Part shown: one piece after another, positions 31,884 to 62,791 of the stretch | Layout: the number at the start of each line of letters is the position of its first letter | Position numbering within the stretch: the first letter of the stretch is position 1 | Assembly: GCF_004001245.1 (NCBI RefSeq) | Contig: NZ_AP018724.1 | Span: 2,596,501 to 2,660,500 of the forward strand | DNA: 64,000 nucleotides | Reading direction: 5' to 3' | Source: Sulfurivermis fontis | GTDB lineage: Bacteria; Pseudomonadota; Gammaproteobacteria; Thiohalomonadales; Thiohalomonadaceae | Translations under genes and position numbers: made by a program | The notes under the pieces: generated by a model | Databases searched by the model: none | What the model was told of the DNA's origin: nothing | Seen by the model: the letters and a program-made list of their open reading frames with translations, nothing else

Positions 31884-32433
31884 CTACGCCCGCCAATGCG
31901 GCGGGGCGTTCAACACATCGGCACACCGCACCGTACCGCGCACCCGGCCGATGATGCCCGGCTTCAACTCCATCACCATCCAGGCGTCGTCATGCTCGGC
32001 GGGGATGGGATACGGCGCGGCCAGACCCAGCGCCCGCGCCGGACGGAATCCGAAGCGGGAATATATAGTCGGAATAGCCCAGGACGAAGACCAGATCGAC
32101 CCCCGCCGCTGCCAGCCATCGCAGCCCTTCCTTGACCAGGGCGCCGCCAACACCCTTGCCCTGCGCCTGCGGCAGAACCGCCAGCGGCGCGAGGACCTGG
32201 GCGGAAACATCCGGATCGGCCGGTTGAATCCCTACCGCGGTAAACAGCACATGGCCTACCACCTCGCCACCACGCTCAGCCACCAGCGAATACAGCGGCC
32301 TGGCCGTCGCATCAGCGAGCAAGCCCTCGACCAGGCCGACGATCTCCGGTCCCTCTGTGAGGCCGAAGGCCGTCGCATGGACCACCCGGACGGCAGCATG
32401 GTCATCTGCGGTAGCGAATCTGACGTTCACCAT
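31884..32433 (-). pseudogene. GNAT N-acetyltransferase (YhbS-like), frameshifted
   Basis: A YhbS-type acetyltransferase in two frames. The first part (MVNVRFATADDHAAVRVVHA to VDLVFVLGYSDY) contains the acetyl-CoA motif VLPQAQGKGVGGALVKEG. The second part (YSRFGFRPARALGLAAPYPI to NAPPHWRA) continues the family alignment in another frame and ends at 31884. The junction is at about 32061-32066, where the plus strand reads ATATATA; one extra base in this run explains the break. The uninterrupted first frame continues only as nonsense to 31990. The frameshift may be a mutation in a slippery dinucleotide run or a read error. Confidence 0.75.
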
Positions 32434-32785
32434 GGGATGTCTTTCATCACGATGGCCGCCCCCTGATATCAACCGGAGCCCTTGGTAGGTTGGCGCTGAC
32501 GCAGGAAGCCCAACGCATCGGCACGTGGCATGCCGGGCTTCGTTCCTCTGTCCTGCTAGTTCGGGGTCAGTAGTTCGGGGTCAGAGTAACGGAGTAGTTC
32601 GGTAGTTCGGGGTCAGAGTAAACGGAGTAGTTCGTAGTTCGGGGTCAGAGTAAAAACTCCAGCGGAGTAGTTCGGGGTCAGAGTAAAAACTCCCCGGACT
32701 CTCCAAGTAAAAATCCTCCAGTTGTTACTCTGACCCCGAACTACACGAACTACAGACCACTCGACAGGACGAATGAATGTTACGT

Positions 32786-54706: not shown

Positions 54707-55483
54707 ATGGAACATCGCGCCCGCAAACGCTTCGGCCAGAACTTCCTGCACGATCGCCATGTCATCGATCGCATCGTGCGCGCCATCCATCCCAAGGCCG
54801 GCGAGCGGCTGGTGGAGATCGGCCCCGGCCTCGGTGCGCTGACCCTGCCGCTGCTGCAGGCCGCCGGCCGGCTGGAGGTGGTGGAGCTGGACCGCGACCT
54901 GATCCCCAAGCTGGAGCAACAATGCGCCGGGCAGGGCGAACTCATCATCCACAGCGCCGACGCGCTCAAGTTCGATTTCTGCGCCCTGGCCCGGAGCGGC
55001 AAGTTGCGCCTCGCCGGCAACCTGCCCTACAACATCTCCACGCCGCTCATCTTCCATCTGCTCGAACAGGCCCACTGCATCGACGACATGCACTTCATGC
55101 TGCAAAAGGAGGTGGTGGAGCGGCTGGCGGCGAAACCCGACACCAGCGACTACGGCCGTCTCAGCGTGATGGTGCAGTATCGCTGCAAGGTGGAGAGGCT
55201 ATTCCTCGTGCCGCCCGGCGCCTTCACCCCGGCCCCCAAGGTGGACTCCGCCATCGTGCGCCTGGAGCCCTACGCCGCGCCGCCGGTGGATGTCGATGCC
55301 GGCGTCCTGGAAAGGCTGGTGGCCCAGGCCTTCAGCCAGCGCCGCAAGACCCTGCGCAACACCCTCAAGGGCCTGCTCGATGCCGCCGCCATCGAGGCCG
55401 CCGGCATCGACCCGCAGCGCCGTGCCGAAACCCTCAGCCTGGAGGAGTTCGCCGCCCTGGCGCGGCATGTCGCCGGCGGCTGA
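54707..55483 (+). CDS. rsmA: 16S rRNA dimethyladenosine transferase
   Basis: A 258-aa SAM-dependent enzyme that dimethylates A1518 and A1519 of 16S rRNA. The N-terminus MEHRARKRFGQNFLHDRHVI, the SAM motif VEIGPGLGALTLPLLQ near 33 and the catalytic GNLPYNISTPLIF near 104 are diagnostic. The usual pdxA-rsmA order is kept, but the spacer is filled by the repeat hairpin, leaving no clear ribosome site except GAGACTT. The downstream apaG is displaced by several inserted genes. Confidence 0.96.
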   Translation: MEHRARKRFGQNFLHDRHVIDRIVRAIHPKAGERLVEIGPGLGALTLPLLQAAGRLEVVELDRDLIPKLEQQCAGQGELIIHSADALKFDFCALARSGKLRLAGNLPYNISTPLIFHLLEQAHCIDDMHFMLQKEVVERLAAKPDTSDYGRLSVMVQYRCKVERLFLVPPGAFTPAPKVDSAIVRLEPYAAPPVDVDAGVLERLVAQAFSQRRKTLRNTLKGLLDAAAIEAAGIDPQRRAETLSLEEFAALARHVAGG

Positions 55484-55560: not shown

Positions 55561-56968
55561 ATGACAGCAACCACTCACTCATCCACCGGGGCAACGGCGC
55601 ACTGGCTGATCTTCCGTATCGGCCGTGTCGCCTGTGCCGTGCCGGCCCTGTCGGTGGCCAGCATCCTGCCGCTGCCGGAACACATCACCGCCATCCCCGG
55701 TGCCGATGCCGGCAGCCCCGGCCTGTTCCATCACGGCAACGGCACGGTGGCCATCATCGACCTGCGCCACCGCTTCGGCCGCGATGTGCTCGACCCGCAG
55801 CGCGGCCGCCTGCTGCTCGGCAAGGTGGGCAGCGGCAACTATGCCTTCTGGGTGGACAGCATCGTCGGCCTCGCCGATGCCGCCCAGGTGCGGCCAGCCG
55901 CGCTGCCGCCGGAACTGCCCCACAACGTCTTCAGCGCGGCACTGCGTTATCAGAATGAACTCGTCCTGTGCAGCGACCTGGCCCCCCTGCTCGCCATGCG
56001 CGATGCCGGCGGCCTGCGCCATCTGGTGTGTGCCGTGCCGCCGCCGCCAGCACCGGCCGCATCAGCACCGGCGGCTGCAGTCGCCCGGCCTCCGGCGCCC
56101 TCGCCAGCGGCGACCGCAGCACCGGCCGCCACAGCCGATTCAAGAAACACGCCACGGCCGCTCCCGCCGCCGGCTCCGCAACGCACGCCCCCGCCCCCGG
56201 CAGCCGCGCCGCGCCCTGTGCCGGCCAGGAGCCCCGCCCCCACCGTCCCCAGCCGCCCGGCGGTCACGCCGTCGCCGTCGGCCCCGGCCGCCCCTCCGCC
56301 GCGCCCTGTACCGGCCTCCGCCCCCCGGCAACCGCGCCCCGCCTCCACACCCCCCTCCGCCGAGGGAGGCAACGGCCTACACTGCACCGCCGCCCCCGGC
56401 GTCCACCAGCCGCCCCTGGCCGCTGATACTGGCGCTGGCCCTGCTCGCCGTCGCCATCGGCTATCTCCTCCGGCCGCAGGCGGAGAAAGCCACCCCACCG
56501 GCCCCACCCGTCGCCCGGGTGACGCCGGCGGCGGCGCCCGCCCCGGAAGCGGAGCCGCGCCCCGTGCCGCCATCGGAACCGGCGGTGGCAGCCGCCCCCC
56601 CGGCCAGCCCGATCTTTCAGGGCGAGGGCATCCAGGTGGAACAGAACGGCGAGGAGATCACCATCGTCATCGAGCGCGCCCGCCCGGAGGCTGCCCCCGA
56701 ACCGGAGCCCGACACCGCCGCACCGCATGACACCACCGCCGGCCCGGCGGCTCTGCCGGCGGCGCAACCCGTCGGCGAACCTGCCCCGCCGGAGCCGGAG
56801 CCGCAGCAGATGTACGTCCACACCGTGGTCAGGGGCGACACCCTGTGGGCCATCGCGGAACGTTACCTCGACGATCCCTGGCGCTACAAGGAGCTGGCAC
56901 AACTGAGCCGCATCAAAAATCCCGATCTGATCTACCCGGGTAACAAGGTGCGCATCATCATCCGCTGA
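55561..56968 (+). CDS. CheW-domain, membrane and LysM protein, interrupted by a frameshift
   Basis: The first frame (from the ATG at 55561) encodes a CheW-like domain (about residues 10-155: LIFRIGRVACAVPALSVASI, WVDSIVGLADAAQVRPAALP) and then a Pro/Ala-rich linker. After a C6 run at 56350-56355 the sense frame changes by +1. The second frame gives a membrane helix (LILALALLAVAIGYLL), an acidic/Pro linker and a LysM domain (YVHTVVRGDTLWAIAERYLD, KNPDLIYPGNKVRIIIR), stopping at 56968. Together these form a plausible CheW-TM-LysM protein of about 468 aa linking a cytoplasmic scaffold to peptidoglycan. Without correction, the first frame runs to 56730 as nonsense. The shift could be an error, a phase-variable tract or a pseudogene. 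Confidence 0.7.
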
Positions 56969-57029: not shown

Positions 57030-57305
57030 ATGAACTTCGAGAACATCCATAACTATTACGAAAAACTGGTGCTGGAACATCTGCAGGATGCCCTGACCAA
57101 GCAGCAGGGCATCACCGATCAGGACCTGCTGGAAGACGTGGCCTGTGTCGCCCTCAACCGCCTGCCCACCCGCTACGTGCGCCATGACGTGGACACGGCC
57201 TTCTTCACCAGCGACGAGGAATGGCAGCGCATGGAAAAACAGGTGGCGGCGGCGGTGGCGGCGGCCCTCGACTATGTGCGCGAACGCGGTGACATGCGCG
57301 ACTGA
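57030..57305 (+). CDS. ComFB-domain protein
   Basis: A 91-aa cytoplasmic protein covering one ComFB domain (PF10719): FENIHNYYEKLVLEHLQDAL followed by EDVACVALNRLPTRYVRHDV. The zinc-type cysteines of the Bacillus protein are not present. Some ComFB proteins of cyanobacteria have been reported as cyclic dinucleotide receptors. Given the five c-di-GMP enzymes or receptors in the window, a similar role is possible but unproven. It lies 61 bases after the CheW-LysM gene and overlaps the start chosen for pgl. Confidence 0.8.
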   Translation: MNFENIHNYYEKLVLEHLQDALTKQQGITDQDLLEDVACVALNRLPTRYVRHDVDTAFFTSDEEWQRMEKQVAAAVAAALDYVRERGDMRD

Positions 57306-61174: not shown

Positions 61175-62704
61175 ATGCTCATTCGAAACCGTTCCCTGTC
61201 CTTCAATATCCTGCTGCTCGCCGTCGTCATCGGCGCCCCCTATGCGGTGCTGTGGGGCTGGCTGCTCGCCGAGGGCCGCATCGGTCTGGACGTCATGGCC
61301 TGGGTAGTGGCGCTGCTGGTGCTCGATGCCGTCGTCATGGTGCTGTTCGTGCGCGGCCTGATGCAGCCGCTGCGTACCGTCAGCACCATCATGCGCCATG
61401 TCGCCGAGGGCGACTTCACCGTCGAGGTGCACAACCCCTATCAGGGACAGATCGGTGACATGCTCACCGACGTCGCCACCTCGGTACACGCCAACCGCAC
61501 CATGATGGAACGCATCCTCGGCAACACCGTGAATATCGCCTCGGCCAGCTTCGAAACGGTCAGCGCATCCTCCAAGGTAGTGTTCAACGTCGAAGCGGAA
61601 GAGAATCACGTCCACAGCATCTCCGAGGCCAGCCGCCAGATCAGCGCCACCGTCGCCGGCACGGCGGAAAATGCCCGCAGCGTCAGCTCGGCCGTCAATG
61701 CACTGAGCGCCACGGTGAGCGAGGGCAACAGCCTCGCCCAGCAGACCCTGGAGAGCATGAGCCAGCTGGCCGAGACCGTGGGCGAGGCGGCGGCCAAGGT
61801 GGAGGCGCTGGGTGATTCGTCACGGCGCATCGGCGAGATCACCGCCGTGATCAACGACATCGCCGGACAGACCAACCTGCTGGCCCTCAACGCCGCCATC
61901 GAGGCGGCGCGCGCCGGCGAGCACGGGCGCGGCTTCGCGGTGGTGGCCGACGAGGTGCGCAATCTGGCGGAACGCACCAGCAAGGCAACCAGCGAGATCG
62001 CGGCCATGATTCACTCCATCCAGAGCGAAATCGCGGCCGTCACCACCACCATGCAGACCGGTGTCGATCGCGCCGACAACAGCCGCCAAGCGGCCCTGCA
62101 AACCGGCGCGGCCTTCGATACGGTAAAGGGTGGCATCGAGACCGTGACCACCCTCATTGGCCAGATCGCTGCCGCTGCCAGCGAGCAGCAGACGGCCACC
62201 GAGGAGATTGCCGCCAGCATCCAGATGATCTCCGAACTCGCCAGCAACAACACACGTCAGGCACACAGCGCCGTCGATACCATCGAACAGATGAATGCCG
62301 TGATCGGCGATCAACTGCGCACGCTGGAGCAGTTCCAGATCCCGCACAAGGCGGTGCTGGTCGCCAAGTCCGATCACATGCTGTGGAAGAAGCGTCTCAC
62401 CGAACTGCTGCTCGGCCGCACCCAGATGCGCTCCAGCGAGGTGACCGACCACCACTCCTGCCGCTTCGGCAAGTGGTACTACAGCAGCGGCAAGGAGATG
62501 TACGGCGGCATCGCGGCATTCCGCGCCATCGAGGAGCCGCACCGCCAGATCCATGCCATCGCCCGCCAGGTAGTCGAGATGCACGAGACCGGCAACAAGA
62601 CCGAGGCACAACGCCTGGTGGAGCAGCTCAGCGCCCCCACCGCCGAGGTGCTGGCGCGGCTGGACGAATTGCACCGCATGGCGGCGGGAAAAAGTGACAA
62701 GTGA
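61175..62704 (+). CDS. Methyl-accepting chemotaxis protein with C-terminal CZB domain
   Basis: A 509-aa chemoreceptor. Two membrane helices (about 10-32 and 40-60) are joined by only a few residues, so there is no periplasmic ligand domain. A HAMP segment follows (about 60-115), then the signalling domain with its conserved tip [20 protein letters not shown] and [20 protein letters not shown]. The C-terminus (about 375-500) is a CZB zinc-binding domain, with [23 protein letters not shown] and [10 protein letters not shown] carrying the His/Cys ligands. CZB receptors respond to zinc or oxidants in other bacteria. The last residues (KSDK) and the TGA stop lie in the first two units of the heptamer array. 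Confidence 0.93.
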
Positions 62705-62791
62705 CAAGTGACAAGTGACAAGTGACAAGTGACAAGTGACAAGTGACAAGTGACAAGTGACAAGTGACAAGTGACAAGTGACAAGTGACAA
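62694..62791 (+). repeat. Perfect 14-copy GTGACAA tandem repeat
   Basis: Fourteen uninterrupted GTGACAA heptamers followed by a partial GTG. The first two units overlap the MCP stop codon. A short mirrored arm (CTTGTAACTTGTCACTT) follows at 62810-62826. Length change would not alter the MCP product because the stop lies in unit two. Confidence 0.95.

Follow-up and report, generated by a model that had tools for sequence, protein, structure and literature searches.

To our knowledge, the positioning of chemoreceptor arrays is understood in a few species only, where it depends on multi-protein chains, the final link of which is still partly missing. In the Vibrio ParC/ParP system, ParP binds receptors and CheA via its CheW-like (AIF) domain and carries the anchor on a proline-rich linker, so that the other end of the protein is anchored to the cell pole (PMC5706961, PMC7534058). 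ParP itself is soluble and reaches the pole via ParC and HubP, and the ParC and HubP proteins of V. cholerae do not interact directly (PMC7534058). HubP/FimV is an inner-membrane protein that affects the position of chemotaxis arrays, and in FimV, peptidoglycan is bound by the periplasmic LysM domain, which is required for polar placement (PMC12918733).

In this study, a stretch of 64,000 nt from the genome of Sulfurivermis fontis (the window, G000:C1:2596501-2660500; single-contig genome of 3.25 Mb) was analyzed, in which a CheW domain, a linker, a putative membrane helix and a LysM domain are encoded in this order, but in two reading frames. Similar to ParP, this CheW-LysM protein carries a CheW-like domain and a proline-rich linker with an anchor at the other end; similar to HubP/FimV, it would be an inner-membrane protein with a wall-binding LysM domain in the periplasm. 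On this reading, it would resemble the array-docking end of ParP merged with the wall-holding end of HubP/FimV, while being a member of neither family. We hold it to be probable, with modest confidence, that the locus is a single gene, broken very recently or misread, whose CheW protein is anchored in the membrane and binds peptidoglycan, and that such a protein would tether arrays to the cell wall. The features of the locus, in window coordinates, are as follows.

54707..55483, plus strand: rsmA (16S rRNA dimethyltransferase), upstream; from the sequence and surA-pdxA-rsmA synteny
55561..56730, plus strand: open reading frame of frame 1, 389 aa in the sequenced allele (CheW domain, then Pro/Ala linker and about 125 out-of-frame residues)
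55603..55995, plus strand: CheW-like domain (Pfam PF01584; genome coordinates G000:C1:2652103-2652495)
55625..56968, plus strand: frame-2 open frame as listed mechanically; coding only after the switch, stop codon 56966-56968
55998..56416, plus strand: Pro/Ala-rich linker read from the sequence, putatively cytoplasmic, with the frame switch inside
56298..56372, plus strand: interval in which frame 1 gives way to frame 2, by the linker codon model; contains two C6 runs
56417..56470 (approx.), plus strand: single transmembrane helix in frame 2, by hydropathy; sequence RPWPLILALALLAVAIGYLLRPQ
56615..56683, plus strand: short conserved segment FQGEGIQVEQNGEEITIVIERAR in the helix-LysM gap, frame 2; by conservation in congeners
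56819..56956, plus strand: LysM domain in frame 2 (Pfam PF01476), putatively periplasmic
57030..57305, plus strand: ComFB-family gene, directly downstream (PF10719; G000:C1:2653548-2653787, E 7.1e-23)

The frame-1 product matched the Pfam CheW family over residues 15-145 (E 1.1e-14, 54.6 bits, cut-off 23.5), and the frame-2 product matched the LysM family (E 4.6e-12, 46.1 bits, cut-off 20.9). CheW and LysM were the only domains matched when both products were scanned against Pfam, and the chain terminates with LysM. A Kyte-Doolittle hydropathy of 1.6-2.9 over 19 residues was found for the helix in the window and in every homologue, and the frame-1 product has its start position and the N-terminus MTATTHSS in common with its congeners (L010, L011, L012). 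By the linker codon model, frame 2 ahead of the switch scored as non-coding, with an Arg-rich reading. From 56300 to the helix, frame 2 lacks a start codon, the earliest being the GTG at 56519; the second half is thus not a gene of its own, and the allele as sequenced should yield only a soluble 389-aa CheW product with a foreign tail. In the gap between the helix and LysM, a conserved stretch of roughly 20 residues, perhaps a beta hairpin, was also seen in L040, L045, L046, L121 and L130, where it ends in GITIVL or a similar sequence.

The earlier note, made from the letters of the window alone, had read the two frames as sensible only as a pair, together encoding a CheW, linker, helix and LysM architecture, and had asked for CheW-LysM fusions to be sought in relatives. 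Both readings were borne out. Five relatives, namely three congeners (G001, G002 and G004), a member of another genus of the Thiohalomonadaceae (G013) and a member of another family (G052), encode the identical domain order as a single gene in one open frame. Intact fusions were found in many families. The same protein occurs in 3/4 congeners and in a second genus of the Thiohalomonadaceae; beyond the family, it was seen in no fewer than eight further families of Gammaproteobacteria and in one Thermodesulfobacteriota metagenome-assembled genome (MAG). Wider searches contributed L040, L042, L044, L045 and L046 from Gammaproteobacteria and Chromatiales MAGs, L041 from the Thermodesulfobacteriota MAG, and G352, G145, G309, G313, G205, G155, G362, G257 and G071. 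Across all homologues from these searches the domain order was invariant, and the architecture nearly always lay in a single open frame; an arrangement as two separate genes was sought in the intact relatives and not found. An annotation pipeline would call the S. fontis locus a pseudogene or two unrelated genes, while in the relatives a single protein is conserved.

The gene was carried by 15 of 369 genomes drawn evenly across the class. Among these 15, the copies of G120 and G209 end at contig ends, and that of G196 (L156, G196:C18:30000-48000, minus strand) has a frame change of its own in the helix-LysM gap, by error or mutation, in a fragmented genome that is 72% complete; most carriers are fragmented assemblies or MAGs. 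Carriage is patchy within the family: 4/5 genomes of the genus and G013 have the gene, and G007 has a fragment of it at a contig end. The 398 genomes drawn from the phylum gave no additional case at E 1e-25, and plasmid records gave no match.

A tree of CheW-type domains was built on about 130 aligned residues, in which the CheW-type proteins of the S. fontis genome itself were named by length, neighbours and sequence. All LysM-linked CheW domains, including those of the truncated G209 copy and the G196 copy, fell into one clade (support 0.989), apart from the CheW, CheV, CheA-P5, ParP, PilI and ChpC domains of the same genomes and separated by a long branch from the known CheW-type domains as a whole. 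This fits a single origin of the CheW-LysM fusion. The protein is real and seemingly undescribed: searches of 5.39 million open-access papers found no description of a CheW-LysM protein, the hits being unrelated or concerned with HubP, although the architecture may be listed in domain databases. MotV and MotW of V. cholerae were also weighed, but neither is described as a CheW-LysM protein.

The frame switch was located by a codon model trained on the linkers of congeners; general codon usage was dropped for this purpose, as the Pro/Ala linker scores oddly in all frames. The switch was placed at 56312-56366 at a likelihood ratio of 20 and at 56298-56372 at a ratio of 1000. The earlier note had put it at a run of six C. 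The interval does contain C6, but as two runs (56321-56326 and 56350-56355), and the exact site is consequently not nameable. In 863.5 kb of this genome, runs of exactly six letters were counted 71 times for C and 40 times for G, and a C6 run is unremarkable at 64% GC.

Comparison of the window with the congeners gave dN/dS values of 0.24-0.27 for the CheW part and 0.15-0.31 behind the break, where only 2 of 65 comparable residues were private to the window, the lowest number among the four sequences. Purifying selection is thus acting on both halves, still including the part behind the break, so that the break is very young or an error. What remains is a break private to the S. fontis genome, either a very recent mutation or a sequencing error. 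Of the origins proposed in the earlier note, error is thus kept, beside a very recent mutation, while programmed slippage and phase variation are not. Programmed slippage was rejected because the relatives are intact and do not conserve a frame switch at this position; a slippery site with an out-of-frame layout, the criterion for a programmed frameshift, was sought in them, and they are single-frame. Phase variation is unsupported, as length variants were not seen and the run comprises just six C. That C6 is nevertheless a phase-variable or programmed slippery site, from which cells make both free and anchored CheW forms, is very improbable in our judgement. Two C6 runs lie inside the switch interval, constraint persists on the half behind the break, and the unrelated carrier G196 is likewise frame-changed within a linker; but the break in G196 lies elsewhere, in the helix-LysM gap, the congeners and other families are intact in a single frame, and C6 runs, common in the genome, are shorter than a contingency tract would normally be.

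A serious possibility, if short of probable, is that the gene is a true pseudogene in S. fontis, a real and recent frameshift having removed the anchor and left soluble CheW only. The genome is complete in a single contig, and a GNAT gene on the minus strand of the same window (~32062-32068) is also frame-broken relative to a congener. However, the second half does not show relaxed selection, which requires a mutation of very recent date, and a sequencing error accounts equally well for the evidence. In 314 coding-like pairs (863.5 kb), for which a third-position excess was required, the CheW-LysM gene and the GNAT gene were the two convincing frame breaks, and two breaks per 314 comparisons fit a small number of young pseudogenes as well as a small number of residual errors. 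An initial tally of 18/191 frame changes consisted mostly of shadow frames and overlapping genes and was discarded. The GNAT acetyltransferase gene itself (~31890-32440, minus strand) is broken at TATATAT (near 32062-32068), and the copy in the congener G004 is intact.

To return to the tether reading, the CheW domain was modelled with AlphaFold (pLDDT 87, pTM 0.82), and the closest PDB structures to the model were CheW in core signalling units at Z scores of 16-17 (16.2-16.8); a CheW fold is predicted. In T. maritima CheW, L14, V27, I30 and V33 form the hydrophobic groove that binds receptors (PMC5706961). The positions of L14, I30 and V33 were occupied by Leu, Ile or Val in 19/19 sequences, while the fourth, V27, was mostly Ala, Ser or Thr in these 19. 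In E. coli CheW, the E38-R62 salt bridge keeps the receptor and kinase sites aligned, and the pair is invariant in class F7 (PMC3828127). The equivalent of E38 was Glu in 0/19 sequences and that of R62 was Arg in 3/19; further, the CheW-LysM homologues have a variable segment in place of the NLRG motif. By analogy with the AIF domain of ParP, a groove without E38/R62 would suit a seat in the baseplate that does not couple receptor to kinase.

The CheW domain could also have been repurposed as a plain interaction module that binds neither receptors nor CheA, the protein then being an envelope scaffold outside chemosensory signalling. The lost E38 and R62 equivalents, the replaced NLRG motif and the long branch of the clade would agree with this reading, but the fold and most groove positions are kept and CheA is encoded by every carrier, and we judge it rather improbable.

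Compared with the described CheW-type proteins, CheW-LysM shares its fold, and the receptor groove for the most part, with CheV and canonical CheW, but it has no receiver domain and no E38/R62 pair, carries an added membrane and wall anchor, and forms a separate clade. In ParP, the CheW-like domain is C-terminal and belongs to another clade, whereas the CheW domain of CheW-LysM starts at residue 15, with no N-terminal ParC-binding domain ahead of it. And while ParP depends on ParC and HubP to reach the pole, CheW-LysM has a membrane helix and LysM in the same chain. A separate ParP-like protein is encoded in the S. fontis genome.

The cytoplasmic linkers of the homologues were 121-396 residues long (median 177), of which the shortest would reach about 38 nm when extended. 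CheW is located at the membrane-distal tip of the receptors, roughly 25 nm from the membrane, so a helix-anchored CheW domain needs a long linker; the observed lengths suffice for the membrane-baseplate gap, which is consistent with tethering but not proof of it. In 18 proteins, 35 Lys/Arg were counted on the CheW side of the helix vs. 20 on the other side, which by the positive-inside rule weakly indicates an N-inside orientation, and we infer that the N-terminus is inside and the C-terminus outside.

LysM had a mean column identity of 65% in the alignment of 19 homologues. The FimV LysM core (TIGR03505) gave no match in the intact homologues or in either half from the window. FimV/HubP has a signal peptide, an N-terminal periplasmic LysM domain and an acidic cytoplasmic part, an orientation opposite to the one proposed for CheW-LysM, and it ends in a C-terminal cytoplasmic TPR domain, whereas CheW-LysM has no TPR domain and ends in LysM. 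For the LysM part, the closest NCBIfam models included the YgaU/PRK11198-type LysM proteins (E ~1e-8, below the cut-off), but LysM is the only part of them present in CheW-LysM.

The best available mechanism, which we infer from these features, is an array-wall tether, as the earlier note had proposed. The CheW domain would enter the baseplate of the chemoreceptor array via its receptor-binding groove, the long disordered linker would span the distance from the baseplate to the inner membrane, the helix would traverse the membrane and LysM would grip the glycan strands, and arrays would thereby be fixed at the wall or pole by a single protein. The single-frame homologues, their single clade, the purifying selection on both halves, the predicted CheW fold, the three kept groove positions, the linkers of at least 121 residues and the presence of CheA in all carriers speak for such a tether, while the loss of E38/R62, the changed V27 and the position of the gene, which at the loci examined was never within a chemotaxis operon, speak against it. 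If true, CheW-LysM would be a ready module for array placement, and one protein with array-docking and wall-binding domains would make array positioning directly testable in environmental gammaproteobacteria.

CheA was present in 19/19 carriers examined. In the even draw of the class, it was found in 15/15 carriers vs. 221/354 other genomes (p 0.001; like the other counts in carriers, uncorrected for kinship). Of the 236 CheA-positive genomes, about 50 had only weak, Chp-type matches by hand count, while the matches of all carriers were strong. FliM was present in 17/19 carriers and in 14/14 of those of good completeness. FimV was found in 18/19, and CheW-LysM is thus not a replacement for FimV. 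Since the carriers have FimV and the S. fontis genome has ParP as well, a further tether would be partly redundant. PilT scored above the family cut-off in 18/19 carriers, and the exception, G313, points to flagellar chemotaxis rather than pili.

The local gene order is lptD, surA, pdxA, rsmA, the CheW-LysM gene, the ComFB-family gene, pgl, glk, apaG, a methyltransferase gene, apaH and a chemoreceptor gene, where all neighbour names except ComFB were read from the sequence without a scan. The ComFB gene, matched by Pfam only and by no NCBIfam model, likely forms one transcription unit with the CheW-LysM gene, and a ComFB neighbour was also seen in L149, L045, L157, L162 and L164. In several families, the gene lies between rsmA and apaG within the old surA-pdxA-rsmA-apaG-apaH block, often with ComFB downstream; in other lineages it lies elsewhere, and L044, L154 and L155 have a different block in common.

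In Synechocystis, pili are under the control of ComFB, which binds c-di-AMP and c-di-GMP (PMC12313861). A wall-anchored CheW might accordingly act not in flagellar chemotaxis arrays but in pili or another envelope process, with ComFB as one conceivable partner and with the CheW domain recruiting a chemosensory-type partner to the envelope. The ComFB gene directly downstream in several families, its enrichment in the even draw of the class (8/15 carriers vs. 47/354 others, p 4e-4, uncorrected for kinship), its nature as a cyclic-dinucleotide receptor on which the pili of cyanobacteria depend (PMC12313861), the loss of canonical CheW residues and the wide occurrence of PilT would all agree with this role. 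But 7/15 carriers are without ComFB, the adjacency may merely reflect the old rsmA-apaG neighbourhood, CheA is present in all carriers, and G313 has flagella and CheA while being without PilT above the cut-off; a pilus or envelope role is thus unlikely in our view. For the tether reading, we tentatively extend the proposal, at a confidence below that given to the tether itself, to widespread undescribed single-protein tethers by which the wall would set array position without ParC/HubP, possibly with a cyclic-dinucleotide input through ComFB.

In relatives, a small conserved gene (~162-226 aa) with an HEACH or HESCH motif, possibly encoding a metalloprotein, lies directly 3′ of the CheW-LysM gene (L149, L045, L157, L162, L040, L043 and L156); it is absent from the S. 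fontis window. The chemoreceptor gene (61175-62704) lies about 4 kb downstream, and its C-terminal part resembles, by eye, a zinc-binding CZB domain. Directly behind it, at ~62698-62791, is a short tandem repeat that reads as LSLVTCH repeats on the minus strand.
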